A stretch of DNA of 64,000 nt. It comes from Primulina eburnea. Lineage: Eukaryota; Streptophyta; Magnoliopsida; Lamiales; Gesneriaceae. Below the pieces are notes generated by a model. That model saw only the letters and a list, made by a program, of their open reading frames with translations. It was not told where the DNA came from and did not search any database. Position 1 is the stretch's first letter. Each line of letters starts with the position of its first letter. The stretch spans positions 10,213,485-10,277,484 of the forward strand of contig NC_133102.1 of the NCBI RefSeq assembly GCF_022965805.1. The letters are read 5' to 3'. Positions 15,873 to 44,432 of this stretch are shown here, in pieces. The position numbers and the translations under genes are program-made.

Positions 15873-18228
15873 TATAGTGCCCAAATTCAGTACACGTATA
15901 ACCCATGCATTCATTTAATTATTAAATAATTTAATAAATTTTATATTGATTTTAGCGATGCATGACTTATTTAAATGCATTATTTTAAATTAATTACGTT
16001 TATGTGATGCACGTTAAAATAGTTTTCGAGCTTCATGTTTCAGGCGATTATTCGAGGCGGGATCGAGGAAAAGACCGGTGACGATTTTGGCAATTTAGGA
16101 CGTGGTATTTTATTTTAAGATTTAGGATGGGGCATTTTAAATAAACTATAGAGTTTTAGTATTTTAAAGCCTTATTTATGTATGGAGTGATTTAAGAGTT
16201 TAAAACTTTTAAAATTGGTGTGTAATTTTTTTAATTGTAGAGTTTGATTAAATTAGTGTTGTTAACTTTTAATTAGTATTTAATTTAGTTAATTTAGCAC
16301 AAATATCTCCTAATTAAAAACACACACACACACGTTACACACACTCACACACACTTACACGTTTTTACACACACTAAAACACACAACACACCTTACACAT
16401 CTTATTTTCATATTTTAAAAGAGAGAAACCCAGGGTTCCTACTCCTTCAGCAGCCGCCCCCTTTCATTCATCATCCTAGACAAATTTTCGTAAGTTTTAC
16501 TGCAAGATTTTGGAGCCACCGTCGTCCCGGATCAAGCTTCGCTCCATCTCCGTTTCGGTGTCGTCGTTACGGTATTTTTAAATTATTCTGTTCTTTCCTC
16601 ATCGATCATGTCATATTATGCGTGTGTTGTTATTTATGCGTAAATCCATGTATGAAGTGTAGTACTTTGAGCGGTTATTTGTTTGGATCGATTTTGAAGG
16701 AAAAAAAATTTAGATCTAAACTCGTTTTTACTGTTCTTCTCGAAACTGAGATTTTTCAGTCGAGATTTTGAGAAAACTTTCAACTATAAAATTGTATAAC
16801 TTTTCGATACCTTCGATTTGATATAAAATTCGAAATTTTTGGACGAAAATTGAGTGGGTTATTGCGTTTTTCGTGGGGCTGCTCAAACTGCGACTTTTAC
16901 GAAAATTGTGTTCTTGAAGTTTATTGGTTGCAGGCTTCATTGGAGATCGACGGGCGATCGTTGTTGCACCTAGGTATGATTATTATGTTGTTGGGTTGGT
17001 ATGTGTACGTAGTTTAGTGTCGATAGGCACTCGAATGCCTTAGAAGTCGTAGGAAAGGAATTGGTGTCAATTGTCACGTTTTGAATGGTATGCGTCGTAG
17101 GGTGAACATCGTCGCTTTGGGAATTTTTACGAATATGGTTTGATGTTGTGGCACGCTAGGTTGAGTCTTGGGGTGTCGATTTGTGGACCGTGCAATCGAG
17201 TCTAGACTGTTAAGCAAGAACCTGATTAGAATTTCCGAAGTTTTCTTGTCCCGCAGGTACACGGACCCACAGACGGACCCTGGCACGGGGTCCGTGCCTT
17301 GTTTCTTCCGGGGTGTATTTTTCCAGAGTCTACACGGACCCCCACCCGGACCCTGACACGGGGTCCGTGTCCACCCTTTCCTCCGAACCTTTTCACCCGA
17401 GCCTACACGGACCCCCACACGGATGTAGGCACGGGGTCCGTGTCCTTCATATTTTGGGAAGAAAATTTATTGTTTGCTTGGGGCGCGATGTCATGGGTTA
17501 GTGCAAGGATTATAAAGGTCGAGTCAAGGGAAATTGTAGAGGGTTCTAAGAAATGATTGAGCTTGAGAGTAAGTATGATAAATACGTCTAAGTTATGCAA
17601 GTTAAGTATGTAAATTCATGTTAGTATGTGCAGCAACGGCCCCGATCGAAGTCCAACGAATCCCTCAACGCCAAGTAAGTATGTTTGACGTGCGAGAAAA
17701 TATTTTAAGTTTTTGAGGTATGCTAAATGTCTTGTGACCAAACTATGTTTAGGATTGGAAAGCGTTAAATTATGAACGGGGACCAATCCGTCCGTTAAAT
17801 TATGAACATATTAGATCATGGTTGGAAAGCGTTAAATTATGAACGGGGACCAACCAGCCCGTTAAATTATGAACGGAGATCTCATGTATGTGGTAGTGGA
17901 TACGTCCCTGTCAGCCCAGTACTGTGGTTTGTCTGATCAGGCGTTTATTATGTATGGGTCACTTGCTTCGAAACATCCTCTACGCAAAATGATGAAGTTA
18001 TGTATGTTCAAGTATGCATTATGTTTATGAAAAGTTTTCATGTTATGGCACGTCTATGCTATGCACGTATGTTCAAGTTTAGTACGCAAATTAAAGTTCA
18101 AATATGTATGTCTTATTTTAAAGTTGCATGCGGTTTTATTATGTAGTACTCGTTATTTCCAGTCTATACGTGTTGAGTCTTTAGACTCACTAGACTTGAT
18201 CGATGCGGGTGAGTATGTTGATGAGGAG
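15873..18228 (+). repeat. 3' LTR of plus-strand Tekay, left piece
   Basis: Collinear with 8318-10680. The first two bases are TA rather than TG. The palindrome array is at about 17258-17443, the TATA region near 17509 and the leader repeat at about 17762-17876. It is interrupted after aggag (18224-18228), the target duplication of the nested Athila. Confidence 0.93.
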
Positions 18229-18411
18229 TGATAAGTGCAATTTATTGTACTTTTATTACTTGTTTTTAATTTGGAATTTTGTGATTCTTGAGCAGGTTTT
18301 ATTTGATTTGTTGTTGTTTTTGTTATTGTAGTTTGGAAGCTTAGAAATGAGAGTTTGGAGTAGTATAGTGATGAATTAGAAGGTGCAAAGGACAAAGAGA
18401 GACGATGCAAC

Positions 18412-18545
18412 ACCGCACCCGCGGTGTCCACATGACCGCACCCACGGTCATGCTAGGACCGCACCCGCGGTCTCACACGCTGAACAGGAGGAATTCCGCC
18501 GAGACACCACCGCACCCGCGGTCCTACCATCACCGCACCCGCGGT
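18412..18545 (+). promoter_or_regulatory. Array of 14-bp palindromes, 23-bp phased, in Athila U3
   Basis: Five copies of ACCGCACCCGCGGT (arms ACCGC/GCGGT, loop ACCC) start at 18412, 18435, 18458, 18509 and 18532. Spacings are 23, 23, 51 and 23 bp. The 9-nt spacers within the 23-bp steps differ in sequence. Bases flanking several units are complementary (ac..gt, tg..ca, g..c), which lengthens the possible stem. The 3' LTR copy starts at 29148, 29171, 29194, 29245 and 29268 with the same spacing despite point changes. Confidence 0.8.
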
Positions 18546-18640
18546 CGTGCACCAACATCATTCCGGAAATTGTGAAACTTTGTGGACTTTGAATAAAAGT
18601 AGAGGAAAATGGTGTGCTACGTGGGGAATCCTGTCTAGAC

Positions 18641-18648
18641 TATAAAAG
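18641..18648 (+). promoter_or_regulatory. Athila LTR TATA box
   Basis: TATAAAAG about 95 bp downstream of the palindrome array. This is the best TATA box in the LTR; the start of transcription would be about 30 bp further on. Confidence 0.7.
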
Positions 18649-19598
18649 GATATCTTTTTCATCACCTAGGTCATATAGAGAGGAGCAAGGAAAAGGGTGG
18701 AGGCTACAAAGAAAAGATTGAAGATCAAGCTCATCTTCTTCAACAAGTTCTTGCACACTTTTGGACAAAAAAACTTGATGCACTTCTCCAAAACTCTTGT
18801 TCTAAGTTCTTACTTTATTTTTACTTTTATTTTGATATGTCTTGTTTAAGATTTATGTGTTGTTGTGTTATTTTCATTATTATGAACTAAATCTTAATTC
18901 TAGAGGAATGATGGAACTAAACTAGAAACCATGTGTTGAGATTCATGATTTATGCTATATAAGTTGTCTTTATTGTTCATTTGTGTTTTTCCAATCTTAA
19001 TGCTTTCATTTTACTGGCCATATCTTGAATGATTTGTATGTTATAAATTATCACTTGGAAAAGGAAATTTATACTCAAGAAAGGGAAAAATACATCGGTA
19101 GTATTTATATAGTTCGGGAGGACATCTATTGCTATTGAAGCCATAAAAATAATTTAGCGCTTATTGTGTTATTTAATTTTAGATTGTCGACAGGGATGTG
19201 ACAATCTTTTGTTAAATAATTAGTATCTACTTAACACTCGGGAGAGGGAGTGGATAATTATAGAATTCTTGGTTAATGAATAAGAAGGACAATTATAATA
19301 TAGCTACACAAAATAGCACATGGTGGATAGTTGCGTGAAGTCAGACCTCTAGATCTTTTACTCCATTGTTCAAATCTGTTCGGTACTACAATTAAATTTA
19401 TTTTCAATTCAGTTATTGATACGAACAAATCTGTTAATTGATTATTCTAAATAAAATCGAGACTATTTTAATTACAAGCATTAATATAAATTTAGAATTA
19501 CATTCCTCGTGGGATCGACACTTGTACTCAAAATTACATTTTACTATAACTTGACGTCGTGCGCTTGCGAGTAATTAAGAAAACACGCAACAAGTTTT

Positions 19599-19616
19599 TG
19601 GCGCCGTTGCCGGGGA
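19599..19616 (+). other. Primer binding site, Asp tRNA
   Basis: TGGCGCCGTTGCCGGGGA, 18 bases complementary to the 3' end of tRNA-Asp, as is usual for Athila. It lies six bases after the 5' LTR. Confidence 0.93.
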
Positions 19617-19733
19617 ATGTAAAATTTGAATTTATATTAGTATTGTTACCAATTAGTCTAGATTTTAATTTAGAGCTATTGTTATTGTACTACATTAAAC
19701 ACTTATTTGTTTATTGTCTTTGTTTAACAGTGC

Positions 19734-21712
19734 ATGCGAAGTTCGCAAAATCTTGACTTGCTTATCTTTGATCCTGAGATCGAAAGAACCGCAAGAAGAT
19801 TAAGAAAGGCAAGAAGAGAAGAGATTAGAGCAATGGCTGAAAACAGAGACAATGAAAATCCACCCCCTGCAATACCCATCCGAGATCATTTTAGGTCGGT
19901 ACTGAATGCTCATTATTCGGGCATAGCACGAGGAACTATTAATGCAAACAACTTTGAGCTCAAACCTGCATTGATAAACATGGTTCAACAGAATCAGTTT
20001 GGAGGAGCCGCTACTGCAGATCCTCATTTACATCCCAGAACATTCCTTGAATTACTGATACGGTAAAAATAAATGGTGTTTCTGATGATATAATTCGATT
20101 GCGTTTGTTTCCTTTTTCTCTTAGGGACCAAGCAAGAGGATGGCTCCAATCGCTTCCTTTGGGGAGTATCACTACTTGGCAGGCTTTAGCAACCAAGTTT
20201 CTTGCAAAATATTTCCCACCTGCAAAGTCTGCACAATTGAAAATTGAGATAAGTACTTTTAGGCAGACTGATTTTGAGCAACTATATGAGGCATGGGAAC
20301 AGTATAAGGAGTTGTTGAGGAGATGTCCAAACCATGGTTTTGAAGATTGGGTACAGATTGAATTATTTTACAATGGTTTGAATGGACAAACAAGAGGCAC
20401 TGTTGATGCAGCAGCTGGTGGCACAATATTTGCCAAATCACCCGATCAAGCATATGATTTGCTTGAACAGATGACCATTAACATTTATCAGTGGCCGTCT
20501 GAAAGATCAGGAGTAAAGAAGCAAGCTGGAATTTATGCCATAGATCCTATTACATCACTCACCGCTCAAGTTTCAGCTTTGACAACTCAAATTGCAGCAA
20601 TGAATAAAGCTAGTACATCAGAGGTTGAAAATGCATCTGTTGTTACTGAAGAACCACATATTCCTGATGAGGCTCATTATATCAACAATAGGAATTTTGG
20701 TGGTTATGGAGGATATCGAGGTAACCCTCCCCCTAACACTTATCATCCGGGTTTGAGAAATCACGAGAATTTTTCATATGCTAATAATAAGAATGTGTTG
20801 ACTCCTCCACCGGGGTTCAATACATCAAAGGGGGAAGGAAAACCTTCACTTGAGGATCTTGTTGGGACATTTGTTGTTGAATCGAGTAAAAGGATGGCTA
20901 GGACTGAATCTCGTATTGATGGCATGGAAACTCACATGGGAAATATGGGAGCCACAATGAAATCATTGGAGACACAGATTGGTCAATTGGCTAATGCATT
21001 GAAAGATCAAAATAAAGGTCAATTCCCAAGTAACACTGAAGTGAATCCAAAAGAGCAATGCAAAGCTGTAACTTTGAGAAGTGGAAAAGAACTTGAGGGT
21101 AAAAATTCCAATGAAAAGGATGAAAAAGAGGTTACTGTTGAAGAAGTCGAAATAGAGGGATCCAAAGCTGAAGCTGAAGTTGAACAACCTCCGGTATTTA
21201 AGCCAATTCTTCCATATCCGCAGAGGTTCAAAAAGAAGAAATTGGATGAGCAATTTGCCAAATTTTTGGAGATATTCAAGAAGATTCATATCAACATTCC
21301 ATTTGCTGATGCTTTAGAGCAAATGCCAAACTATGCAAAGTTCATAAAAGACGTGATGTCAAAGAAGAGGAAGTTGCATGAGTTTGAGGCATTGAAGTTG
21401 ACAGAAGAGTGTAGCGCCATACTTCAAAGAAAACTACCACAGAAACTCAAAGATCCAGGGAGTTTTACTATCCCTTGTGTTATTGGTGGTTCTAGAATAA
21501 ATAAAGCTTTATGTGATTTAGGTGCCAGTATTAATTTAATGCATTTTTCTATTTACAGGACTTTAGAGCTTGGCGAGGTGAAGCCTAGCACTATTACCCT
21601 ACAGCTGGCAGACAGATCACTTACATATCCACGGGGTATAGTGGAGGATGTTCTGGTAAAGGTAGAAAAATTTATATTTCCTGCTGATTTTGTCATTCTA
21701 GATATGGAATAA
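19734..21712 (+). pseudogene. gag: Athila gag and protease
   Basis: Starts at the ATG of MRSSQNLDLLIFDPEIERT, typical of Athila Gag N-termini. A frameshift near 20055, after FLEL, interrupts the gag domain; it resumes in the next frame (FPFSLRDQARGWL, FLAKYFPP, FYNGLNGQTRGTVDAAAGG, NIYQWPSER). A long variable region follows (NFGGYGGYRGN, a coiled segment around GMETHMGNMGATMKSLE, LRSGKELEG), then the protease-like CDLGASINLM near 21510-21540. The frame ends in a premature TAA at 21710-21712. Translation in the same frame continues as DQDTPLIFGRPFL, so this is a nonsense change (GAA to TAA fits). Function: particle shell and maturation protease. Confidence 0.9.
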
Positions 21713-24037
21713 GATCAGGACACTCCGCTTATCTTTGGAAGGCCATTCTTGGCCACTGGAAAAGCTTTGATTGATGTGCACAAAGGAGAACTTACATTGA
21801 GAGTAGGTGGAGAAGAAGTCATGTTCAACATCTACAACACAATCAAAGAACCAAATGAGGTAAGTACTTGTAATAGCATTGATGTAATTGATTCATGTGT
21901 ATCTCATGTTGGTGCAGGTAGATTGACGAAAGATTCCTTAGAGAGATGCTTGTTGGAATCGGCGTCTACACTGGATGAAGATGATTGGGATGTGCAAGAT
22001 GAGTTACTTGCTCTCGATACAATGCCTAAAGAAAAGATTGATGTGCATCATATAGAGCTACTTGAAGATGCAAGTATAGAGGTACCAAAAATATCCCCTG
22101 AATTGAAGGAACTTCCAAGTCACCTTTGTTATGCATTTTTAGGTGAAAATTCGACATATCCGGTAATCATCTCTTCTTTTCTTACTTGTACTGAAAAAGA
22201 GAAATTGTTGAGAGTGTTGAGGGAATTTAAATCTGCTTTGGGATGGACAATTGCTGATATAAAGGGGATTAGTCCTACAGTTTGTATGCATAAAATCTTA
22301 ATGCAGGAGTCATATTCACCCTATGTTGATCATCAGAGAAGGCTTAATCCAGCAATGAAAGAGGTTGTGAGGGCTGAGGTATTAAAATTTTTAAATGCTG
22401 GTGTTATTTATGCTATATATGATAGCTCGTGGGTTTCACCAGTACAAGTAGTGCCTAAGAAGGGAGGAATAACTGTAGTGAGAAATGAGAATAATGAATT
22501 GATTTCAACTCGTCCAATGACTGGTTGGCGAGTATGCATAGACTATAGGAAATTGAATGATGCAACTAGGAAAGACCATTTCCCTCTTCCTTTTATTGAC
22601 CAGATGCTTGATAGAGTTGGTGGTTATCATTATTATTGCTTTCTAGATGGTTATTCAGGTTACAATCAGATTGTCATAGCACCGGAGGATCAGGAGAAGA
22701 CTACCTTCACATGCCCTTACGGTACATTTGCTTTCAGGAGAATGTCATTTGGTCTGTGCAATGCACCTGCTACTTTTCAGAGGTGTATGATGGCCATATT
22801 TTCTGACATGGTTGAGGAAATAATGGAGGTTTTTATGGATGATATCTCTGTGTTCGGTTCATCTTTTGATCACTGTTTGCAAAATTTAATGCTTGTGTTG
22901 CAGAGATGTCAGGCGAAGAATTTAGTTTTGAATTGGGAAAAATGTCACTTCATGGTTCCAGAAGGTATTGTGCTTGGCCATAAAATTTTGGCTAAAGGAA
23001 TTGAAGTGGACAGGGCCAAAGTTGTGGCAATTGAAAATCTTTCACCGCCAAAGAATGTGAAAGGAATCAGAAGTTTCTTGGGACATGTCGGGTTCTATCG
23101 TCGTTATATCAAAGATTTCTCTAAAATTACTAGACCTTTATGTAATTTGTTAGAGAAAGATTCGACATTTATTTTTGACGATGAGTGTTTGCAGGCATTT
23201 AACAGGATCAAGAAAGCACTGATTTCTGCTCCCATTATGATAGTGCCTGATTGGAATGAGCCATTTGAGCTCATGTGTGATGCTAGCGACTATGCTGTGG
23301 GAGCAGCATTGGGACAGAGGCGAGACAAGATGTTCAAGGCTATCTACTATGCAAGTCGTACACTTAATGCAGCCCAACAGAACTATACAACTACTGAAAA
23401 AGAGATGCTAGCAGTGGTGTTTGCATTTGACAAGTTCAGAACATATCTCATAGGCACTAAGGTAACCGTTTTTACTGATCATGCAGCTCTTCGCTATTTG
23501 TTTGCCAAAAAGGATGCCAAGCCCAGGTTGATACGATGGATACTTTTACTTCAAGAATTTGATTTTGAAGTCAAAGACAAGAAAGGTTGTGAGAACCAGG
23601 TGGCAGATCATTTGTCACGACTAGAGCTTGAAGAAAGAACTGATGGTGAAGTCATTAATGAGACGTTCCCAGACGAACAACTATTTGAGGTAAATTCTAA
23701 ACTCCCTTGGTTTGCCGATATAGCTAACTTTTTGTCTTGTGGTACTTTTCCTCCAGATCTGAATCATCACCAGAAAAAGAAGTTCTTCCATGATATCAAT
23801 TTTTTCTTCTGGGATGATCCTTGTGTGTATAAGAGATGTGCTGACCAAGTGATTAGGAGATGTGTTGATGGAGAAGATGCACACAAAATTCTGGAACAAT
23901 GTCATTCATCACCTTATGGTGGACATTTTGGAGCTACACGAACAACAGCTAAGGTATTGCAATCAGGTTTTTTCTGGCCTACTTTGTTTAAGGATAGCTA
24001 TACCTTAGTGAAATCATGTGATAAGTGCCAAAGGTAG
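21713..24037 (+). pseudogene. pol: Athila pol: RT, RNase H, integrase finger
   Basis: Same frame as the preceding gag-protease. The end of the protease (LIFGRPFLATGKALIDV) leads to RT: VQVVPKKGG, CIDYRKLN, FLDGYSGYNQI, FGLCNAPATFQ and the catalytic FMDD at 22832-22843. RNase H has MCDASDYAVGAAL, TEKEMLAVV and TDHAALRYL. The integrase HHCC finger ends CDKCQR. A one-base loss at about 24035 (tgccaaaggta) shifts the frame and gives a stop at 24037. About 770 residues are otherwise uninterrupted, so RT and RNase H look intact. Confidence 0.92.
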
Positions 24038-24987
24038 GAAACATTTCGAGGCGTCACGAAATGCCACTGACAAATATTTTGGAAGTGGAACTTTTTGATG
24101 TCTGGGGCATAGATTTCATGGGACCTTTTCCCCCTTCTTTTGGTCAATCTTACATATTATTAGCTGTAGATTATGTTTCGAAATGGGTGGAAGCAATCGC
24201 CACCAGTACTAACGATGCTCGTGTGGTAGTTAAGTTTGTGCACAAGAACATTTTCACCAGGTTTGGAACAGCGAGAGCCATCATAAGTGACGAAGGTACG
24301 CATTTTTGCAATAGAATTTTTAACTCACTGATGGCTAAATACAATGTAAAGCACAGAGTGTCATTGGCATATCATCCTCAATCGAACGGCCAAGCTGAAA
24401 TATCCAACCGGGAAATCAAACAAATCTTAGAAAAGACTGTCAATACAAATCGGAAGGATTGGGCTATAAAATTGGATGATGCATTGTGGGCTTATAGGAC
24501 AGCGTTCAAGACACCTATTGGGATGTCTCCTTATAGGTTGGTTTTCGGTAAAGCCTGTCACTTGCCACTGGAATTGGAGCATCGAGCATTCTGGGCAGTT
24601 AAGAAGTTGAATTTTGATTTGAAAGCCGCTGGAGATGAAAGAAAACTTCAGTTGAATGAAATGGAGGAGTTCCGCAATGATGCCTATGAAAATGCCAAGA
24701 TTTATAAAGAACAGACCAAGAAGTGGCACGATAAGCTCATTGTACGAAATGAACTAAAACCAGGACAACAAGTACTCTTGTTCAATTCCCGTCTAAAGTT
24801 GTTTCCTGGTAAGTTGAAATCGCGTTGGTCAGGCCCATTTTTGGTGGAGACAGTGTACCCTCATGGAGCGATTGAGCTAAAATGCAATGATGGAAGGACT
24901 TTCAAGGTGAACGGGCAGCGAGTTAAACCATACTATGGAAATGAAGTAAGGAACCTTGACAACATTCCTTTGGGCGGATCAACTTGA
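24025..24987 (+). pseudogene. Athila integrase core and C-terminus
   Basis: Continues from the integrase finger in another frame after the frameshift. It contains the DDE core: [22 protein letters not shown] and [21 protein letters not shown], then a C-terminal part with [25 protein letters not shown] and NGQRVKPYY. There is no chromodomain, as is usual for Athila. Length is normal. Separated from RT, it would not be made as part of the polyprotein. Confidence 0.9.
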
Positions 24988-25302
24988 TATTGACTGATGG
25001 TAGTCAGGCTGAAGACGTTAAACCAAGCGCTTATTGGGAGGCAACCCAAATTTTTGTTTCTCTTTTGCATGTTGATTTTGATTTTGGTTTTGATTTTATT
25101 TTATCATGTTATTTTTGGTTGTGTATTTTTAATATAGTGAGTGCTTAAATCTTCCCAAATTTAATGAATCTCAATTGTTTTCTTTTCAGGACTGAAAATT
25201 TGAGAAGAAAACATTTTGACGAAACAGGAGTGCCCCTGCAGTCTCATGTGCACTGCACCAGTGCTTGAGGTGCATTCAAAATACAAGAAAATTCGAAGCA
25301 GG
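24988..25302 (+). other. Untranslated region after Athila pol
   Basis: No coding signal. It holds 'aagcgcttattgggaggcaacccaa', a short block I recall as common after Athila pol, then T-rich sequence leading into the palindrome array. Confidence 0.5.
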
Positions 25303-25648
25303 AGTGCACCCGCGGTACAAAGACACCGCCCCTGCGCTTAGTGTGCCGAAGCACAACCGCACCCGCGGTGCTAACAATACCGCACCCGCGGTCGTGCAGT
25401 ATGGAAAAATGCAAGTGCTGCCGAGAGGGTACCGCACCCGCGCTCCCTAGCATACCGCCCCCGCGCTGAGCTGCCGAAAGATACCGCACCCGCGGTACGC
25501 CTAACACCGCACCCGTGGTCTATTCACATGGAAAAATGCGCTGAGCTGCCGAATGCTTACCGCACCCGCGGTACCCTTCACGCCGCTCCCGCGCTGCACT
25601 CCCGAACGAACACCGCTCCCGCGGTGCTTACTATACCGCACCCGCGGT
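25303..25648 (+). promoter_or_regulatory. Internal array of twelve 14-bp palindromes in six 23-bp pairs
   Basis: Units matching ACCGC-[A/T]CCC-GCGGT start at 25303/25325, 25356/25379, 25431/25454, 25483/25506, 25559/25582 and 25612/25635. Within-pair spacing is 22 for the diverged first pair and exactly 23 for the other five. Pair-to-pair steps alternate 53, 75, 52, 76 and 53 bp, giving a higher-order period of about 128 bp. The longer intervals share 'atggaaaaatgc' and 'gctgccga'. Spacers within pairs are 9 nt and differ. ATTTAAAG (25655-25662) follows at once, so this may be an internal promoter for the ORF at 26172. That role is inference. Confidence 0.75.
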
Positions 25649-26171
25649 CGCACCATTTAAAGACAGAATCGGGCAATCTCTTGACATAATCGAAGAACAC
25701 ACTCAAGAACCCCCACTTCCATTTCGAAATCCCTACTCAAAAAACACAACTCTCACACCAAATTTTTGTTATTATTTCAACAAATTCACCACTACAACCT
25801 AAAAAGCTTCACTCATTCCATCAAATATCACATTCCTTTCCACCAAATTCAACATCAAACCTAGGGTTGAAAAGGGGCTTGAAAATTTTTTCAAGGATTT
25901 GAAGGAAACTTTGATTTTGTTCTTCAAGAAACAATTCAACACACTCAAGGTGAGCAAATTCATCTCATATTTATGAAAATTTCGAATTTGTTGGTGATAA
26001 TTGGTTTGGAAGGAAAATTCATTTGGTGAAGCACATTCTTGATTTTGGGGATATTGTTTATTGATTGTTGAATACATTGTTGAGGTGTGGATATTATGAG
26101 TAGTAGTTTGGGGGAGTGCAAGAATCCTTGTATTTTGAGAAGTGGGTTGAAGTGAAGTTGTTGTTTAAAAA
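25649..26171 (+). other. Possible leader of the Athila extra ORF
   Basis: It has a TTTAAA-type TATA-like site at 25655-25662, then C/A-rich sequence. A good splice donor, CAAG|GTGAGC, is near 25949. A T-rich stretch ending TTTAAAAAG lies directly before the ORF. A leader intron from about 25951 to 26171 is possible but unproven. Confidence 0.35.
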
Positions 26172-27348
26172 GTGTTCGACAAAAGGCCTCCAAGAAGTAA
26201 ACAATCTAAGGGTGCTTCATCCTCATCAACGGTGAATTATGATGCGAGTCGGTTTTATGATGAGAAGGCGGAGGAGCAATATGGGAAGATTTTGAATAAA
26301 AGCATTATCAAGGAGAGGGGATTTGATATGAGCTTCCCTCAATCTGAAATTGGGATGATGCTTACAGCTCGACATTGGGAAGAATTTGGCAGGCAGCCAC
26401 ATGATGCTGTCATTTCACTGGTGAGAGAGTTCTATGCTAACTTAAAGGTTAGATATGATCGGTTGATGGTTTTTGTGAGAGGAAAACAGGTAGCCTTTGA
26501 TGCACATATGATTAACACGTTATATGGCATCCCTGAAATCATGCACGACGAGTATGAAGAATACAGAAACGAGCATGTTGATTATAACAGTATTCTTCAA
26601 ACAATTTGCATACAGAGAGCTGAATGGAGAATGAGGGACGATGTGCACTTGAGCCTAGCAAAGTCTGATCTGAAGACTGTTGCGAAAAATTGGTATTCAT
26701 TCATTTCTGCTAGGATCAAGCCTACCGAACACATCACTACCGTGATCAAGGAGAGAGCCATTCTCACATATTGCATTATGACAGGGAAGACAGTTGATCT
26801 AGGTCAATTGCTTCAGAATTCAATTCTAGACTATGCAAGAGGTAACTCTCCGAGTGGACTTCTCCACCCCTCTCTCATCACTGTTTTATGCCAACATGCG
26901 GGGGTTACTTGGGCAACGAATGAAGAGTTGTTGAGGCCAAAGAATGAAATTGTGGTAATTCAACCATATGGGGGCGTCAGAAATGACCAAGCTGCAGCAC
27001 GTAGAGCTGAAAGGGAATTCAATAGGAGAGCTGCAGAGAGACGTGCCCAGGCCCAGGCCCAGGCCCAAGAACCACCACCGCAACACAGGCAGAGGAGAGA
27101 CAGACTGACTCAGTTGGAAGAGGACATGCGAGTTCAGCGCCAAGAGATGGATGCGTTTCGGTATAGGACCGATACATTCATGGGATACATGATGGATTTC
27201 ACTTCGGTGTTGGCTCAGAATTTTTCCATCTGCTTCCACTTCTGGTCATCCATTTCCACCTCCTCCACAGTGGCCACCCGTTTACCACCCGCCAGAGTTC
27301 CAACCATCCAACGACGACGAAGATGAGGATGATGGCAATGACCACTGA
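26172..27348 (+). pseudogene. Athila extra ORF (env position), plant-transposon-protein-like
   Basis: About 390 codons downstream of pol, where Athila elements keep their third gene. The frame opens at a GTG; an in-frame stop lies just upstream at 26166, so either the ATG was lost or the start is made by splicing. It contains ERGFDMSFP, RHWEEFGRQPHDAVISLVREFYANL, VFVRGKQVAFDAHMINTLYGIP and TGKTVDLGQLLQNSI. I recall this pattern from 'putative plant transposon protein' domains. A Gln/Ala-rich coiled segment follows. An extra T in a run near 27222 shifts the frame; the other frame has a Pro-rich, then acidic tail ending at TGA 27346-27348, probably the original end. I see no signal peptide or membrane span. 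Confidence 0.65.
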
Positions 27349-28964
27349 CGGTTGTTGCCCAGTGTATGTGCATTTTCCTATTTATCATGCGTATTTACAT
27401 CGAGGACAATGCACATGTTTAAGTTTGGGGGAGATTTGGTTTATTTTATTTTTGTGTTTTATTTTATTTTATTTGGAGTGTTTATTTGCTTTTGTGTGTT
27501 TATTTATTTAGTGTAGTTTTGTGTGTTTAAATTTTTGGTTTATTTTGTGTGTTTGTAGTATTTTAGTCATGAAATTTTTAATGAATTGGCCAATGATGAA
27601 AATATTTTTTTATGGAAAAGAAAGGTCATGCATCAAATTCATGTTAATTGATCAATTTGAAAAATTTAGAGAATAATCATGAGATTTGGTGAGTTTGAGA
27701 CTTACAATTTCTATAAAACCTTGTGATTTTTATTTGACATTGAAATAAATTTTTTGCAAACACATAGATGATTGAGGCAATCTTTGATTTTATTTGGGCC
27801 ATTTATATTATTCATAAACATTCAATTGAAGCTCTTTTGAGCCTATATGAACAAAGAATTGTGCTTTTGAAATTCCTTGGAAGCCAATCACTTTTCTTTT
27901 TGAATATATATGTATTTGGTTGATTCATTGAGACACCATTTTCACGATGATTAGATTCTACTCTTTGATGGTGAATTGAGATTTTGTCTAGAACTATCCA
28001 AACATCACTCGAGGCGAAATACGGACAAATTATGATTTAGGAATGATTTAGGTGATTTTTGGATCGATTGAGCCTTTCAAGCTACCAAATAAAATTATTT
28101 TATCATTTGTCACCTCTTTGAGCTTATATGAATTTGAATGGCACATGTAAATATGTGTAAAAGACCCCCATTCAAATATTTTTTTCAAGTATCCCACGAT
28201 TACCAACCTTTTGAATATCTTATACAATTATTTCCTACCTTCTCAAGGGAGTAAGAATTCAAAAGATTAAAGAAAGTGATATTCTCCTACAAAAGAAAAC
28301 AAAAGAAAAATGAATAATGATACATTGTTGAAGTTGGAGAAAAAGGGGAGAAAAAGAGATGAAATGAATAAAGAAAAAATTGGAGATCAAAAGAAATAGT
28401 GGAGTTTGCAAAATAGATGAAATTCAATTTACTCCCTTATTTGAACTCCTAATCTTTATTTGTAGCCATGAACCGAGGCCTAACATAACAACCATTGAAA
28501 ATCCTATTAACCTAGTCATAGTTGTCCAATATACTAGTGGAGAGTGATTGGGAGGATCTAGCCTATGGACAATCGATAAACACTTTCATTGAGTAAGAAT
28601 CTTGATCAACTCTACACACACCTCATTGCATCAAATATTTATTGGGTATCCATTTCTTGAATGAATATTGCTTTGAACCCAATCTTTACCGAAAAAGACC
28701 TTGTGATATGTGTTTGTAAAAATTTGAAATCAATTAAGAATGATTTGAAACATGGTTGAAGAGATTTGAAGTTAGAAAATTAACCAATCACATGATTTTA
28801 TCCGGATGAACAAGTGGTTGAATTAATTTGAATTGTAAATGCATGAATGGTTTTAAATTTATCTTGAGGCCAAGTTCTTTAAAAAATTTCATGACTTGTT
28901 TGTTTGTTTGTTCTTGTTGTTTTGTTTTGCTCAGGACTAGAAAAATCTTAAGTCTTGGGGAGTT
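27349..28964 (+). other. Athila 3' untranslated region and polypurine tract
   Basis: 1.6 kb of T- and A-rich DNA without a convincing frame. A short purine run 'catttgtttaagtttggggga' lies near 27413-27432. The end, 'agtcttggggagtt' (about 28951-28964), borders the 3' LTR and is the likely polypurine tract. Confidence 0.6.
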
Positions 28965-30327
28965 TGATAAGTGCAATTTATTGTACTTTTATTACTTGTT
29001 TTTAACTTGGAATTTTGTGATTCTTGAGCAGGTTTTATTTGATTTGTTGTTGTTTTTGTTATTGTAGTTTGGAAGCTTAGAAATGAGAGTTTGGAGTAGT
29101 ATAGTGATGAATTAGAAGGTGCAAAGGACAAAGAGAGACGATGCAACACCGCACCCGCGGTGTCCACATGACCACACCCGCGGTCATGCTAGGACTGCAC
29201 CCGCGGTCTCACACGCTGAACAGGAGGAATTCCGCCGAGACACCACCGCACCCGCGGTCCTACCATCACCGCACCCGTGGTCGTGCACCAACATCATTCC
29301 GGAAATTGTGAAACTTTGTGGACTTTGAATAAAAGTAGAGGAAAATGGTGTGCTACGTGGGGAATCCTGTCTAGACTATAAAAGGATCTCTTTTTCATCA
29401 CCTAGGTCATATAGAGAGGAGCAAGGAAAAGGGTGGAGGCTACAAAGAAAAGATTGAAGATCAAGCTCATCTTCTCAACAAGTTCTTGCACACTTTTGGA
29501 CAAAAAAACTTGATACACTTCTCCAAAACTCTTGTTCTAAGTTCTTACTTTATTTTTACTTTTATTTTGATATGTCTTGTTTAAGATTTATGTGTTGTTG
29601 TGTTATTTTCATTATTATGAACTAAATCTTAATTCTAGAGGAATGATGGAACAAAACTAGAAACCATGTGTTGAGATTCATGATTTATGCTATATAAATT
29701 GTCTTTATTGTTCATTTGTGTTTTTCAAATCTTAATACTTTCATTTTACTGGTCATATCTTGAATGATTTGTATGTTATAAATTATCACTTGGAAAAGGA
29801 AATTTATACTCAAGAAATGGAAAAATACATCGGTAGTATTTATATAGTTCGGGAGGACATCTATTGCTATTGAAGTCATAAAAAGAATTTAATGCTTATT
29901 GTGTTATTTAATTTTAGATTATTGACAGGGATGTTACAATCTTTTGTTAAATAATTAGTATCTACTTAACACTAGGGAGATGGAGTGGATAATTATAGAA
30001 TTCTTGGTTAATGAATAAGAAGGACAATTATAATATAGCTACACAAAATAGCACATGGTGGATAGTTGCGTGAAGTCAGACCTCTAGATCTTTTACTCCA
30101 TTGTTCAAATCTGTTTGGTACTACAATTAAATTTATTTTCAATTCAGTTATTGATACGAACAAATCTGTAAATTGATTATTCTAAATAAAATCGAGACTA
30201 TTTTAATTACACGCATTAATATAAATTTAGAATTACATTCCTCGTGGGATCGACACTTGTACTCAAAATTACATTTTACTATAACTTGACGTCGTGCGCT
30301 TGCGAGTAATTAAGAAAACACGCAACA
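28965..30327 (+). repeat. Athila 3' LTR
   Basis: 1363 bp, the same ends as the 5' LTR. The palindrome array at 29148-29281 keeps its 23-bp phasing although three units have lost one base of symmetry (for example actgcacccgcggt at 29194). Confidence 0.95.
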
Positions 30328-30332
30328 AGGAG

Positions 30333-30615
30333 ACAGGAGGTGGCGACCCAGGGGCAGGCTTGGACTGAGCGGGCGGCTTAACCCGAGGACCGCAATGTTT
30401 AAGTTTTATGCAATAGTTAAAATACTCTGATTTTAAGTCTTGATTTATGACGTTATGAACAAGTACTTTCTTTTAACAACATTTTATCGGTGACAAATGA
30501 TTTCAAAAATGTATTTTTTTTATGAATGATGAGTAACGACCGTATGGATGATTTCTATTTATGAAAATTTTTAATTTTTTCGCAAATTTGAGTATGAAAA
30601 GTACGGTACGTTACA
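30333..30615 (+). repeat. 3' LTR of plus-strand Tekay, right piece
   Basis: Continues the LTR from gagacaggaggtgg to acgttaca and matches 10690-10972. It is followed by aggag (30616-30620), the target duplication of the Tekay element. Confidence 0.92.
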
Positions 30616-32739: not shown

Positions 32740-34174
32740 TTTATGATTCAGAGTAATATGTCTCTAGAAATAGTCGTGGATTCTTCTAAATTTTATGGAG
32801 ATCTTAAAGAGATCCAAAATACAATATACAACCATGTCAATCAACTATACTATGTACTACGTAAAATTGAAGAAATCATTTTACAAACAAGAAGAAATTA
32901 TTGGAATACTAAATGATATTCAAACAAGAATCCAAAATCTAGAACAATAATAAAGTTTAGTAGAAGAATCTCAGAAGGAAAGTTACCATCATCTTTTGGT
33001 ACTAAACCTTTATTATATCAAAGAAGGAAGACCAAAGTGATACAAAAATCTTTAACTGATGACGAGAAAATGACCAATCTCATCAAAATTATCTTAGAAA
33101 AGACAATAATATGATGCCAACTTTCAGAGAAGTTTGTTCTGGATGATCCATAAGACCTTGCAAAGTCTTTTGAAATCTTATGGTTGTAGATATAAAAATG
33201 AATACAATTGGGGTTGGTGAACAACTCTTAGTTAGTAGAATACAAGAACCACCAAGAAAAAGTGTTGACATGGGTGGACCCCAAAATGATTTCCAGGTTC
33301 TAAAGAAGCACACACAGTGGGTTATCTATTTTGGAACAAAACACTCTATTTAATTTGGTTTGGAACCAATACATCTTTATGGGTTATGTTCAACCTTGAT
33401 GTACTGAACTTCAAAAACATAAAAGATCTCAAAGTTGATTAGACATCGGCTATGAGAATCGCAGTAAAAACACTTGATCTCAATAGAGAATTATTCATTA
33501 AACTTTTAAAAATTGTTATTATGGGATTAGTTAAAATTGCTTAGGACTTGACTTTGGTAGAAATCAAACAGTCATTCCTAGTTGGAGAATCCCTTAGATA
33601 TATAGCAGGAAGAATTGCTACCCAATTTAAAGCACAAATTATATGGGTTGATTATTTCGACAGTCAAGACATAGAGAAAAAAAATACTCAAGCTCTGTAT
33701 AATATTTAATTACATGAAATATATTTAGTGGATGAATACATTATGCTTTTCAATAAATATATATGTAATTCAGGGGTAAAAAAAAATAACAATGTAACAT
33801 TTCTTTGCTAAAATGCCAATTCCTTGGAGAAAAATGTTAATAAGAGAATATGTCCTTGGCAATCCAGATAATTTGGCCAGACAATCTACTTTTCTTAAAG
33901 GAAAATTGACAGACTCAGAAGAAAGTATATATCAATAAGAAGGAGTCATGAGTCAGATAAAATATAATTAGAATCTGACTGAAGATGAAATATTTTGACA
34001 CAAAAATAATCTTTTCAGATTTCTTAACAGGAGATGGAAAACACTAATGTTGATTTCATCATGAAAATGCAGAGAAATTTGAGGGAACACCATCAAATAC
34101 TTCAAACCGAGTTCAACAAGCTTGCCCTAAATGCCAAAGTTGCGGGTAGGTTACAACAAGTTGATAAAATCACT
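32740..34174 (+). pseudogene. Pararetrovirus-like remnant, left part
   Basis: The plus strand, read across frames with many stops, has protein-like stretches unlike LTR elements. Between about 33450 and 33930 the pattern resembles a Caulimoviridae coat-protein region: a Leu/Ile-rich start, then 'LVDEYI', then 'MPIPW' and a short basic segment. An ATG at 34034 opens another short frame that is cut by the copia insertion at 34174 (target duplication tcact). No RT or movement-protein signature is visible, so the assignment is tentative. If right, this is an old, disabled integrated copy. It could instead be another decayed retroelement. Confidence 0.4.
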
Positions 34175-35143
34175 TGAAAGGATCGGTAAATCGAATAAAG
34201 AGTGTTTAGAAGGGGGGATTGAATAAACACCGCTCAAATTTAAATATTCTTTGACAATGTGAGTTCAGTTTTGTTACAAACTGAAACTAGATATCCCGTC
34301 GGTCAATAGCAATCAGTTAAACTGAATAAAACAGTTGCGGAAAATAAACTGACTGATAGATAGATTATCTAACTGAAAATGATAACTGAAATAATGACAC
34401 CACAATTTGTTTCTGGATGTTCGGAGACTTGAATAACTCCTACGTCACCCCTTCTGTCACGAAGATAGGATATTCACTAAAAGACTTTGATCAAATACAA
34501 AACACTGTACTGACCCACTTCAGTTTGGACTTATCACTTTGCCAAGACTGAAACTCTTAGTATACAACACTTTTACAGATCGTAACTGATCTTAGCACAA
34601 TTTAGAAAATCAAACAACGATTTCAGAGTGCTATGTAAGCTCGAGAATGTAGTCTAGAATACTACTGATATGACTGATAAGCGTGAGCTTTGATTCTCGA
34701 ATGCGAGTCGATATTTTTGCAGCGTAACAACAAGTAAAATGATATGGCTGAAAGTCGGTTGTTCTTCAGTTGCTGCCTTCGACTATTTATAGACTTTCCT
34801 TTTAACGGTAACATTAAAGAATATTTGAATATTTTAACCGTTGATTGCCACGTCGACATTCTCTGACGATCGTACACTGTTCATTCTGAAATGCGGCGTT
34901 CCACTACTAGTTGCAGGTGGATGTACTATTTGTCGGTTGTCGCTTTCGACTGATGACGTGTACAGCTGAGAAATCAGCTGGTCAAGAATCAGTTGACGAG
35001 ATCAGTTGATGAGAATGAACTGACGAGATTTCCAGCTGAGAGGTCAGTTGGATTAGTTCAGTTGCGACGATCAGTTAGTCGGATTCAGTTGCTGAATTCA
35101 GTTGGTAAATTCTTTGTCAAACGCCGGAATTAAGTTTCCAACA
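34175..35143 (-). repeat. Copia 3' LTR
   Basis: 969 bp from tgaaaggatcgg to agtttccaaca. On the minus strand it has a TATA box (CTATAAATAG, near 34785-34795) and, upstream of it, many CAGTTG and CAGCTG words (34960-35105). The block 'cctacgtcaccccttct' is shared with other copia LTRs in the window. Confidence 0.94.
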
Positions 35144-35156
35144 ATTTCCCCCTTTA
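35144..35156 (-). other. Copia polypurine tract
   Basis: On the minus strand this reads AAAGGGGGAAAT, next to the 3' LTR. Confidence 0.85.
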
Positions 35157-35283
35157 TGGTGTTTGATAAAACCAGAGTAATAAATAACTGAATAACTGAA
35201 TTCATAGAGATAAAATAAGATGTTGATTCAACTGAATTCATATACTTCACAAATACAAGAATTTAAAATTTCTTCTGCTACGC

Positions 35284-37875
35284 TTAAGACTCTTCCCCCT
35301 TTTTGTCAAACAGCTCTATCTTAGTCGATAATTTACGAACGTCAATCGACAGGAGGTGGACAGAGTCGGAAATATTGCTGATAGCAGTAGTCATTGCAAC
35401 TTGAAGCAAGTCGATTTTTCTTGAGACGAGTGACTCCACACTGTCGACTCGTTGGTTAATAGAGTATTGAGTGGCAGTGATGCTCGACAATATTCCTCTG
35501 TTTTTCTGTATATCTTCAACTGCAAATGTCAAAGAAGTAACAGCATCTTGTATGGCGTTCAGTTTTTCTAAGTTGAACTGATGAGAATGGTCCAACTTCA
35601 AAGTGTGAGACAGTTGCGTATTCTGAATCTTGGAGATGGCCGTAAGCATTTGACTCATAATGTCCTGCATATTCTGAACTTCTTCAAAGATAAGATCAAA
35701 ATCTGATGAAGATGGAGGAGGAGACTGATGAGAGGTTCCTGGTTTTCCCATGGTGTGTTCAGAAATGACTAAAGCTTGTTCAGTTGTAGCAGCAGCATTC
35801 TGAACTGGAACATCAGTTTCAGTAATCTCTCCTTGAACTGGAGGCAGTGATGGTGGGTTCTGATCAGCAGATACGTTGGCCTGATGAATAGTAGATGGGG
35901 AAGAAACCAAAACTGGTGCCTCTAAAGGATGATCTATTGAAACAATTGGCTCATCAGTTGAAAGGGTTTGGTCAGCAGATGAAACTTGCTGAACTAGTGC
36001 CTCTGATGAAGTAAGAGCCTCTGGATCGATTTGATCAACGGAGTGATCAACTTTGTCAGAAGTAGGTTCGATCAAATGGGATTCTAGTGCCACTGCTTGA
36101 ATGATTTCATCAATATGAGCGAAAGAAAGTTCGGCCTCAGTGTACAATTGTTGTTCAGCAGGAGGTGGTTGAGGTAGATCCTGAACTGGTTCGTCAGTTG
36201 AAACAGGAGCCTGTTCTGAGGATGGTTCTTCGACTGTATCATCTTCATCATCAGTGGAGTCTACTTGATGAAGAACCAACTCTTGATCCATTTCCCAAAA
36301 TTTTATCTGAGATAGCAACCCAACCAAATCAGCGTCTAGCTGAGTAATTACTGCTTGATCAGCATAGGCAGTAGGATTTGTGGGAACGTAATTGGCCTTC
36401 AGTTTGCCAACAATTTGAGCCAACTTCTTGGCTCTCACTTGATCAAACAAATAAGATTTTCGTTCCATGGCCTGAGCAACTGTAGCTGCTTTCACCGTTT
36501 TGAGAACATAAGCTTCCAGCTTGATAAAAGTGTTCAGTTGAGATTTCTTCTTCAGTTGCTTGGCAAAAACTTCTGTACGGAAAGCTGTTCAAGCATCGTA
36601 GGCCTGAATTTTTGAAGCCGCATAAATATTGACCTTTGCCCAAACAAGATCAATGTGAGTTTGAATAGGGTTGGATGGTCTGGGCTCTTCAATCAACTTG
36701 CCCTTTCCTTTCTCGGTGCTCAGAATGTGAGGGATCTCCAATCCTGTTCGAGTAGATTCCACCACTTCTATAAATTTTATCCCTTTGGGTCGAGCAGGTT
36801 CCACACCAGTAGAGCGAGTGATCTGAGTCAGAGGAGCTTTGGCCCGAACCGATTCCTTTTTGGCACCAACTGAAGCTTCTGGTGGAATGATCTTCAGATG
36901 GACTGCTTCAATAGGCTGTTGAACAACTGAAGAAACAGTCGTATCAGTATGAATGGATGCCTCGGTAGTTGTTTTAACCCTGTGGGTTCTTGGTTTCTTG
37001 ACAATCCGTGGAGATGGAGTTTTCTCGGAATCAGATGCACTCAAAATTAATTTCCTTTTAGCTACCTTCAGTTGAGCCAAAGTTTTGGCCTTCTTCACTG
37101 ATTTTGGGGCTGCCTGCTGAGTCCCAATCTCCTGCTTGACCTTTACGAACTGAGCAGGGGTAATGTCCAACTTGGTCTTGAGTGGCATAGTATTCTTCGC
37201 ATTGAAGAATTTTAATTTTGATGATCTTTCAGAATCATCAGCCACTAACCCTTTCAATTTCAGCAGATAGATGAGTTGCACAGCAAATCCCTTGGACTGT
37301 TTGGAAGACAAAAACATTTTCTTCAGAACATTAAATATAAGGTGCTTCCAGTTGAGTTTACGATCAGCCATAATAACAGAAATGGCTTGAAATTTCTCCA
37401 AATTGAGGGCAGCGAACGATCCAGCTTTTGCCAAAAGCCCCTTGGCAACAATATCAGCAAGTAACTGAACTTCATACTTCAGTTCTTTCTTTGGATCGGA
37501 AACTTTGATCTTCCGTCCATCAGCGGAAAGTGAAGTTTGCATCTCTTCAATATCAGAAGCTTTAACATCCGAGAGGTGTGCCAATCCATCAGAGGGTAAG
37601 GAAAATATTTCTCCAAAGGAGTCTTCAGAGATGGTCAGAGGCAGATCATTGACAATGGAAACGATGTTTCCATCAGAATCGACCATACCGGTGGAGTAGA
37701 AATCCTGAAGTTCTTTGGGGTAGATTTCTTGAGATGATTTTCCCAAGAATGTCCGTAATCCAGCAATCTCAAGTTTTTGAAAAACTTTCTTGACATTATC
37801 ATCCCCGAAGGATAGAATTGATCCGAAATTGATAGCCATAGCATTTAGCATATAAGCGAGAATTTGAGTTGCCAT
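35284..37875 (-). pseudogene. Copia accessory ORF in the env position, one internal stop
   Basis: About 860 codons in one frame from MATQILAYMLNAMAINFG (ATG 37873-37875) to a stop at 35284. One TGA at about 36589 divides it (CGA to TGA would explain it). Residues 1-220 form a compact Leu/Phe-rich domain (VKKVFQKLEIAGLRTFLG, AKAGSFAALNLEKFQAI, SKGFAVQLIYLL). Then comes a Lys-rich basic region with KKAKTLAQLKVAKRKL, then a helical segment (LKKKSQLNTFIKLEAYVLKT). A long acidic, Ser/Pro/Gln-rich stretch follows, and the C-terminus looks like a coiled coil (about residues 720-860). No signal peptide or membrane span is evident. I recall related ORFs in copia elements of some asterids. Function unknown. 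A decayed homologue is at 52044-54140. Confidence 0.75.
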
Positions 37876-38431
37876 TGATAACTGAATGAATTCCTGAAAA
37901 GATTGAAGCATGAAATTTGATCTTGCTCTCAAACAATTTTGGATAAACGTAAAGAGAAAAATGAAATGGAGTGGGTAAAATCTTTTTGTTCGTGACTGTT
38001 CGAATTTTTGGACACGTGTCTGTCCAAGAAAATTTCAAATAATTTCGAGTGTACGTGTGCCAAATGCGTGTGTATTTTGAACGGTTTCAAATGTGTCCAC
38101 GTAGAATCATTTTCTGAAAAGCAGTATTTAATGCTTGAAAGACAGTCACGTCGCTTGATTTGGAATAAAATAGATTTAATTAGTTAACTTATGTGAGAAG
38201 ATTAGCAAAAAGCTCAATTGAACGATCAGTTGTGAAACTGTGTCCTTTCAGTTGAGAACTGACTAACCAATTGTCTTCTCAGTTAACCTCTTAAAAACCA
38301 ATATTCCCCCTTAATAAATGCATTAATGATAATGACGAAAATATAAACAAGATTAATTAACAAAATCCTGAAGCTTGGTAGAGTAATCGTCATTCAGAAA
38401 GACACTGTCCTTTCAGCTTCCTTGTCCTATC
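37876..38431 (-). other. Shared spacer between two divergent reading frames
   Basis: About 550 bp between the start of the sense accessory ORF and the antisense gene. The two genes point away from each other, so this could act as a divergent promoter. It has CAGTTG words and a CCAAT near 38298 but no other strong signal. Confidence 0.4.
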
Positions 38432-38440
38432 CTATAAATA
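38432..38440 (+). promoter_or_regulatory. TATA box of the antisense gene
   Basis: CTATAAATA on the plus strand, 57 bp before the ATG at 38497. With a normal 30-bp distance the 5' leader would be about 30 nt. Confidence 0.65.
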
Positions 38441-38496
38441 AGATTTAAACAATTAGGCACAAATATATCGGCAGATAATATTCAGCAACAAAAAAA

Positions 38497-38826
38497 ATGG
38501 CAGGTGCTAGTAGTTCGAGTGTCTCTCCGTTTTCTTTGGAGTCAAGAAAAGATGCTATTGAAGACGAGGTCTTCTACACCAGTCTTCCCTACTGGGAAGA
38601 GTTACAGGAGCTTGAGTTCCTGTACAATTCTGGAAGGGCCACCACCTTCAAACGGGTGGCACAGCTGAGAGAAGTGCGGGAGCACTTGAACATTGCTGCT
38701 TGGGTGGACGTCTTTAAAGATGGTCATCTCTATCAGCTAATGCTTCGAAAGGAGCTGGAGATTCTCAATCGCATAGCTTCCTCTCACAGCTTCTGCAAGA
38801 CATCTTCCTCAGCTCTAGATGTTTAG
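38497..38826 (+). CDS. Small antisense gene inside the copia element
   Basis: 109 codons on the strand opposite to gag-pol. Start MAGASSSSVSPF; the ATG has an excellent plant context (AAAAAAAATGGC). A TATA box lies upstream and AATAAA is at 38895-38900 downstream. The product is soluble and charged: a Ser-rich N-terminus, then helices with PYWEELQELEFLYNSGRATTFKRVAQLREVREHL and AAWVDVFKDGHLYQLMLRKELEILNRIA. There is no signal peptide or known motif. The frame is undamaged while every other ORF of the element has stops, apart from pol over most of its length. It may regulate the element or be a captured host fragment; I do not know its function. Confidence 0.6.
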   Translation: MAGASSSSVSPFSLESRKDAIEDEVFYTSLPYWEELQELEFLYNSGRATTFKRVAQLREVREHLNIAAWVDVFKDGHLYQLMLRKELEILNRIASSHSFCKTSSSALDV

Positions 38827-38894
38827 TTGAGAATGTGGATTGCTGATGTAGAGAAAAAATATGATAATGTAATCATGGCCAATGTTTATGGTTA

Positions 38895-38900
38895 AATAAA
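38895..38900 (+). terminator. Poly(A) signal after antisense gene
   Basis: AATAAA 69 bp after the stop codon of the antisense gene, followed by T-rich sequence. Confidence 0.45.
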
Positions 38901-39173
38901 ATATCTATTTTGTTTTAATGTTGCTTTTCTTGTTCCTGCAAGTAATAAGTCTCATGAGTTAATATATAAGCATATGAACTGATGAAACGCTGAAAAAAAA
39001 TGACTGACATCAGTTGAATCAAAAAGAAAGATTAAAGTGAATTGAACAAACTAACTGCTCAGAAATAACTGACATCAGTTGAGAGTTATAAGAGTAATCA
39101 ACTAACTGACAAATCAGTAAATGATAATAAAGCTGACAAATGAGTTAAGAATTAAGACAGCAATAACAACTGA

Positions 39174-44430: not shown

Positions 44431-44432
44431 CT

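Follow-up and report, generated by a model that had tools for sequence, protein, structure and literature searches.

The stretch of DNA analysed here (hereafter the window; 64,000 nucleotides from Primulina eburnea) contains an Athila-type Ty3/gypsy element whose LTRs (18229-19594 and about 28965-30327) are 98.1% identical; over 1366 aligned columns they differ by 25 substitutions and a single gap. The element is flanked by a 5-bp direct repeat, AGGAG (18224-18228 and 30328-30332). Its RT and RNase H precede integrase, and the order of Ty1/copia Sireviruses is thus absent. The element has the LTRs and 5-bp target duplication of the Athila type, a gag-pol in which RT comes ahead of integrase, and an additional ORF past pol; the name comes from the first-pass annotation and agrees with the features of the family. 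A second Gypsy element (8320-30615) hosts the whole element within its 3' LTR, of which 15875-18228 and 30328-30615 are the two parts. An array of short palindromes occupies the segment between pol and a predicted env-like frame, and related arrays are found in both LTRs and elsewhere in the window. The features are listed below, with steps between palindromic units measured start to start.

18229-30327, plus strand: Athila-type Ty3/gypsy element (self-BLAST, LTR comparison and domains)
18412-18545, plus strand: array of five units in the 5' LTR, steps 23, 23, 51 and 23, with TATAAA at 18641 (motif scan)
20051-24987, plus strand: gag and pol frames (Retrotrans_gag, RVT_1, RNase H, Integrase_H2C2, rve), upstream of the internal array
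25293-25296, plus strand: YCGA box, 10 bp before pair 1 (read from the sequence; the -10 rule comes from the sampled arrays)
25303-25648, plus strand: internal palindrome array, six pairs of the unit ACCGC-WCCC-GCGGT (12 units), located after pol and ahead of the env-like ORF
25656-25661, plus strand: TTTAAA box 8 nt past the last unit, a candidate internal TATA box (read from the sequence)
26169-27326, plus strand: predicted env-like/ORF3 frame, Pfam PF20167, downstream of the internal array
29148-29281, plus strand: array of five units in the 3' LTR, steps 23, 23, 51 and 23, with TATAAA at 29377 (motif scan)
60950-61157, minus strand: array of eight units, steps 23, 52, 23, 31, 23, 19 and 23, in LTR-A (starts 61290, minus strand), with flanks that group with class FAM0
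62261-62444, minus strand: array of a second palindrome, CGCGC-ATAT-GCGCG, in LTR-B (starts 62616, minus strand), plus-strand steps 42, 23, 42, 31 and 23

LTR-A, which carries the array at 60950-61157, shows no BLAST similarity to the Athila-type element. LTR-B lies directly to the right of LTR-A and matches it at 77% in its downstream half. A solo LTR (58132-60813), similar to LTRs in 8320-10972, is inserted in LTR-A with the direct repeat ATAAA on both sides. The CpG observed/expected ratio is 0.44 in the interior of the Athila-type element (19700-25200) and 1.09-1.28 in the four window arrays of the first palindrome. When the 5' and 3' LTR arrays of the Athila-type element are compared, four of the 25 substitutions fall within the 70 unit columns and none within the 64 spacer columns. 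In each of these four columns one LTR retains the common letter, and all four differences are C/T or G/A.

The internal array had been described in the first-pass annotation as twelve units in six pairs, five of them with a 23-bp step and the most diverged with 22, the pairs following each other at alternating steps of about 53 and 75 bp in a 128-bp higher-order unit. This description was confirmed. Steps along the array are 22, 31, 23, 52, 23, 29, 23, 53, 23, 30 and 23, pair starts alternate at about 53 and 75 bp, which gives a period of 128 bp, and the same period was reported by Tandem Repeats Finder (2.5 copies, 74% matches). Compared with ACCGCWCCCGCGGT, six units are exact, two have one mismatch, three have two, and one (25325) has three. 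Mononucleotide shuffling of the 346-bp array left a mean of 0.095 units and a maximum of 2 in 200 shuffles, against 12 in the real sequence (up to three mismatches allowed). At the same threshold the motif occurs 31 times in the whole window, where 1.08 occurrences are expected and at most 5 were found in 100 dinucleotide shuffles. In addition to the box before pair 1, YCGA boxes are located at 25346, 25421, 25549 and 25602, each at -10, and at 25474, at -9.

The further statement that the 9-nt spacers share no sequence turned out to be overstated, since spacers 2 and 6 are alike in seven of nine letters, and spacers 4 and 5 in six of nine. Likewise, pair blocks 2 and 6 share 35 of their 37 letters. 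The six pairs are therefore not independent of each other and, together with the 128-bp tandem period, this makes the fixed step within the internal array alone weak evidence. Regularity of this array is partly a matter of 128-bp tandem duplication, and the weight of the case for spacing rests on arrays outside it.

The host assembly (812 Mb; 812,487,562 bp in 1224 contigs) was scanned for ACCGCWCCCGCGGT, which disclosed 26,617 + 25,750 = 52,367 exact copies and none of the reversed pattern. Pairs of half-patterns separated by a 9-nt spacer number 17,184 genome-wide, compared with 7,096 for all spacers of 0-8 nt combined. Among 100 matches of the 0-8 nt class listed (contig C1), spacers were 3 (11), 4 (13), 5 (27), 6 (28) and 8 nt (21) long, with none of 0-2 or 7 nt. 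Spacers of 3-6 nt (steps 17-20) form a tighter junction class, in which they are short and purine-rich (e.g. GAG, GTGAG and GCAGG). The search with the exact pair pattern gave no matches in viral contigs and a single one in prokaryote contigs, on a contig of a bacterial metagenome bin (L001), where two exact 14-mers at 4916-4950 are separated by 7 nt.

For arrays in LTRs, 20 regions surrounding sites listed within the initial 9.8 Mb of contig C1 were retrieved and yielded 30 arrays. The window adds four, the internal array among them. For arrays preceding ORF3, 107 genome matches of the env-like ORF were scored from 3550 first-look candidates, and 1.2 kb upstream of 20 ORFs picked from these 107 was inspected; arrays were present in 17 of the 20 regions. 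The full sample consists of 51 arrays, 379 units and 328 steps, all from one genome. Three duplicate arrays were removed for the statistics on run length, indels, boxes, TATA-like boxes and unit positions and for the count by class. Units were detected with up to three mismatches to the motif. At 12 of the 14 positions a single letter is found in 87-99% of the sampled units, a conservation that is partly by construction because units were detected through their similarity to the motif.

Based on BLAST comparison of flanks, arrays were separated into four classes with non-homologous flanks, the 17 pre-ORF3 copies being assigned by position. FAM0 and FAM1 are two LTR groups probably of the chromodomain type, FAM2 is the Athila LTR, and FAM3 is the Athila pre-ORF3 site. 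In copies L017, L021, L026 and L028 of FAM0/FAM1 the SH3_Tf2-1 domain is well above cut-off. Chromo matches in L017, L021 and L028 (E 5e-5 to 2e-4, 21.4-23.5 bits) are below the Pfam cut-off of 25.1, and a Chromo domain sought in L026 gave no match. In RT, FAM0 and FAM1 have an identity of 0.73-0.76 to each other and of 0.36-0.39 to Athila. Because FAM0 and FAM1 are both assigned to the chromodomain type, only two deep lineages are represented, and copies inside one class are relatives rather than independent cases. A free-standing satellite can be ruled out, as the sampled arrays occupy LTR-type flanks or the pre-ORF3 site. In one region (L012), two arrays of the Athila-LTR type, about 6 kb apart (268-416 and 6251-6399), have opposite orientations, unlike an LTR pair.

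Other copies were examined for random spacing, and a step of 23 is modal in each of the four classes with non-homologous flanks (38/78 in FAM0, 24/48 in FAM1, 18/34 in FAM2 and 74/168 in FAM3; 154/328 overall). The 328 steps fall into 178 of 22-24, 45 of 29-32 and 84 of 50-54, with 21 of other values. After removal of duplicates, runs joined by steps of 22-24 contain exactly two units in 155 of 191 cases. When the step order was shuffled within arrays, the mean number of two-unit runs was 54.9 (sd 6.4, maximum 78).

The wording that two helical turns separate the paired palindromes was loose, as 23 bp amounts to 2.2 turns. A step of exactly 21 is absent from the 328 sampled steps, from 139 steps of the second palindrome, and from the 100 close pairs listed, which rules out an exact two-turn spacing. 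Linkers of at least 28 bp cluster modulo 10.5 bp (resultant 0.82 for 136 linkers of the first palindrome and 0.81 for 60 of the second). With pair steps included, the resultants are 0.58 and 0.70, respectively, and the period of 10.5 bp is then surpassed by 7.2 bp for the first palindrome and by 9.5 bp for the second. The helical reading of linkers is descriptive only.

We have also addressed the question of whether ordinary tandem duplication is sufficient, i.e. whether a 23-bp unit and then a 75/128-bp unit were copied, spacers drifting in sequence while inheriting their lengths and spacing having no function. The 128-bp repeat with its 2.5 copies and the near-identity of blocks 2 and 6 in the internal array speak for such a process. 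In addition, the likeness among 9-nt spacers, both within and between classes, slightly exceeds that obtained after shuffling their letters. Homology of the whole unit, spacer included, holds for the 128-bp period of the internal array, and between classes only weak likeness of spacers and linker ends is seen. Rates of length change point the other way. Indels per substitution amount to 0.268 in flanks, 0.121 in short spacers, 0.122 in mid-length linkers and 0.087 in long linkers (272 pairwise comparisons), and in short spacers 84 length changes were seen against 185.6 expected from flanks. As pairwise comparisons are not independent, we read this deficit as a two- to threefold depletion and attach no p value to it. 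Of 697 short-spacer pairs, 334 were omitted from the comparison, each with spacers equal in length and below 50% identity, and this omission counts against depletion. A control with windows between aligned runs had the same direction; it is biased towards indels and was therefore not used. The effect is weak in FAM0 (19 changes seen, 23.8 expected) and FAM2 (3 seen, 4.3 expected), where lengths change nearly as flanks predict, in accordance with duplication. The proposal that length is kept while sequence drifts is thus upheld for the sample as a whole and only weakly in these two classes. Further points against duplication are identical steps in classes with non-homologous flanks and in arrays of a different palindrome, and a box in register with the pair (see below). 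As the explanation of the spacing we consider it unlikely. The earlier judgement that the pattern is not simple tandem duplication is correct in part, as the internal array does have a 128-bp tandem period.

The 9-nt spacer has a weak dyad bias, in which T hardly ever occupies the first and A the last position, while T is common at the third and A at the seventh. Long linkers compared between classes exceed letter-shuffled likeness by 0.02-0.11 over their first 20 letters and by 0.13-0.23 over their last 12 letters in all six class comparisons, whereas the 12 letters between the ends are within 0.04 of the null. Since linker ends are alike between classes, a common origin of the module is possible.

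The first unit of a pair is preceded by a box like TGCCGAAGC. Of 182 linker-following units, 102 have YCGA exactly at -10, two at -11 and two at -9, and only one of 171 second units has YCGA in its spacer. Counts by class are uneven (9/40 in FAM0, 5/24 in FAM1, 9/16 in FAM2 and 79/102 in FAM3), and most YCGA boxes belong to FAM3. The form YCGW, adopted after these uneven counts were known, occurs at -10 in 122 of 182 units (14/40, 20/24, 9/16 and 79/102, respectively, i.e. from 35% to 83% by class), and at any other offset in at most five units of a class. The box is therefore strong in FAM1 and FAM3, whereas roughly every second unit has it in FAM2 and every third in FAM0. Genome-wide, GCCGA-N6-ACCGCACCCG occurs 4,696 times and its reversed control is absent. 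The -10 rule is based on the sampled arrays and this one count at the expected offset.

Alternatively, the palindromic units could form hairpins in RNA or DNA and might, for instance, give rise to small RNAs in silencing, as proposed for maize Sireviruses. Small RNAs do map to palindrome clusters of maize Sirevirus LTRs, according to a 2023 paper that cites this result (Bousios 2016, via PMC10760457). RNA of the internal array (25303-25648) folds better than shuffled sequences (z -3.67 sense, -2.25 antisense), and the C/T and G/A character of all four differences inside units of the Athila LTR pair is what methylated cytosines would give. Positions 2 and 13 carry C or G in both arms and are weakly associated in the direction expected of base pairing (odds ratio 2.7, p 0.0008, from non-independent units), but 97 of 353 such units break this base pair, which half-sites allow and stems would not, and which rules out a strict hairpin. 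A fixed 23-bp step and a phased box outside the stem are also left unexplained. We therefore regard hairpins as a distinctly doubtful basis for the arrays.

Distances to a TATA-like box downstream of the last unit are characteristic of the class, with patterns of this box having been selected after reading the sequences. In FAM0, 13 of 14 distinct arrays have the box at 47-55 nt. All six Athila LTR arrays have it at 95-97 nt, and all 19 distinct pre-ORF3 arrays have a TTTAAA-type box at 6-8 nt. In FAM1 it was found in only three of nine arrays.

The second palindrome, CGCGC-ATAT-GCGCG, has 24,002 sites in the genome. It was studied in 20 arrays (19 loci in the first 9.2 Mb of C1 and one in the window) with 139 steps, of which 18 arrays could be oriented and two could not. 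Steps are 22 (37), 23 (37), 31 (30), 40-43 (16) and 48-51 (16), with 25, 28 and 54 found once each. Before the first unit of a run, C, A and G at -10 reach 78%, 75% and 72%, respectively, in 64 distinct flanks, at the offset where the first palindrome has CCG. A TATA-like box is present at 47-66 nt in 12 of 18 arrays. The 24 nt past the last unit match FAM0 in one register, with an identity of 0.371 against 0.252, the next best register giving 0.288. The set of spacings is thus that of the first palindrome, and related LTRs have a different palindrome at roughly corresponding positions, with geometry and surroundings retained.

According to a 2023 paper (PMC10760457), the cis-regulatory regions of elements frequently consist of repeat arrays, some of them palindromic. 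The closest described system are the repeated motifs (RMs) of Ty1/copia Sireviruses (Bousios et al. 2010, PMC2829016), and comparison is made with the available part of that paper. RMs are palindromes that precede the TATA box within LTRs and also precede ENV; they were called Sirevirus-specific, and an internal promoter of ENV was proposed. According to this source, RMs resemble the arrays described here in having many near-identical, GC-rich and CpG-rich palindromes per element, in the LTR cluster upstream of the TATA box (here 18412-18545, with TATAAA at 18641), in extra copies upstream of ENV (here 25303-25648, with the predicted env-like ORF3 from 26169), and in high copy number (here 12 internal units and five per LTR). 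In contrast, the hosts here are Ty3/gypsy lineages, and the RM core is given as CGG...CCG while the one here is CCG-N6-CGG. A fixed pair step, quantised linkers and a phased third box, all present here, are without mention in the available part. With respect to RMs as described there, the Gypsy hosts, the different core, the spacing rule and the phased box are new, while the place and the general design are known.

Two further systems can be compared. Family-specific internal repeats are described between pol and the 3' LTR (PMC11963269), the same position as that of the internal array. They are presented as tandem repeats as such, unlike the alike palindromes with unlike spacers that are common to LTRs in our sample. 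The accessory gene of maize Grande (Gomez-Orte 2013, cited in PMC7264820 and PMC11963269) is also located downstream of pol and has its own promoter, for which there is a candidate only in the case of Athila ORF3; the Grande gene is antisense, in contrast to the sense Athila ORF3. The exact 14-mer was not found in open-licence full texts, and no description of palindrome arrays in Athila or chromodomain elements was found in the titles and abstract starts of the open-licence literature. The available part of PMC11302176 contains nothing on such arrays.

The arrays have in common their anatomy and spacing rule, they recur in Athila and chromodomain-type elements, and they are accompanied by the phased box and TATA-like distances. 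To these observed features we would add, judging from sequence, a binding protein, cooperativity, enhancer activity and, upstream of the env-like frame, an internal promoter. The array is probably an enhancer module of LTR promoters, bound by a host factor and reused upstream of the env-like gene. The U3 of several Ty3/gypsy families carries a module composed of a YCGW box, a 14-bp palindrome, 9 nt and another 14-bp palindrome. Linkers of roughly 31, 42 or 52 bp separate successive modules, and in three of the four classes the last module ends at a fixed distance upstream of the TATA-like box. In this proposal, a homodimer of some host transcription factor would occupy each palindrome (half-site A[C/G]CGC, 4-bp centre), two dimers would come to stand side by side at the 23-bp step and bind cooperatively, and the phased box could accommodate one more half-site or a partner. 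Possible candidates include LOB-domain, CAMTA and AP2/ERF proteins, none of which is singled out, and literature listings on LOB-domain binding sites gave nothing to go by. The first-pass annotation had suggested a protein that binds as a cooperative pair. Cooperative binding in pairs fits the arrays and, as a hypothesis, is the best reading.

In VANDAL elements, VANC anti-silencing proteins encoded by the transposon itself bind to its repeated motifs, and by analogy the array might bind an element-encoded factor such as the product of ORF3, which it adjoins in the Athila-type element, but this is very improbable, as the motif and its spacing are also found in chromodomain-type elements, where the FAM0 copy L017 has between its two LTR arrays only one frame of at least 130 aa, a gag-pol of 1537 aa, even if an Athila protein could act in trans on other lineages. 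The single frame in L017 makes a host protein the likelier shared binder.

Under the host-factor proposal, the array before the env-like ORF would drive a separate internal transcript. Two statements in the literature count against such a promoter: a 2020 review has env-like genes transcribed from the 5' LTR (PMC7264820), and splicing was predicted for Athila env (cited in PMC2829016).

A more general possibility, which we put forward tentatively, is that distantly related retrotransposons have a common enhancer code in which spacing comes first. A plant factor family might read palindrome pairs at 22-23 bp, linkers of about three, four or five helical turns, and a box at -10. LTR families would then be able to swap one palindrome for another (ACCGC-ACCC-GCGGT for CGCGC-ATAT-GCGCG) at the same U3 place and to keep the geometry, because the assembled complex rather than a single site would be under selection. 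Should these readings be right, a minimum of two deep retrotransposon lineages would have exploited one host regulator or regulator family, and the genome would offer, as a natural library, spaced sites in the tens of thousands whose sequence varies independently of their spacing. Two questions would thereby become testable, namely which factor wakes the elements, and what share spacing has, compared with site sequence, in enhancer grammar. Expression of the env-like gene in plant Gypsy elements would be concerned as well.

A Copia element on the minus strand of the window (34171-45402) has integrase before RVT_2 and two extra frames past pol (36589-38034 and 35284-36588), a Sirevirus-like layout, and a scan of its LTRs for clusters of GC-rich palindromes found none. 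A different GC-rich array is present in another pair of LTRs (104-1552 and 3825-5273), at 1234-1466 and 4955-5187. In the first LTR, the only one for which palindromes were listed, it is composed of TTCGG/CCGAA palindromes about 10 bp apart together with 20-mers that contain CACGTG. This array may represent a third kind of U3 palindrome array.
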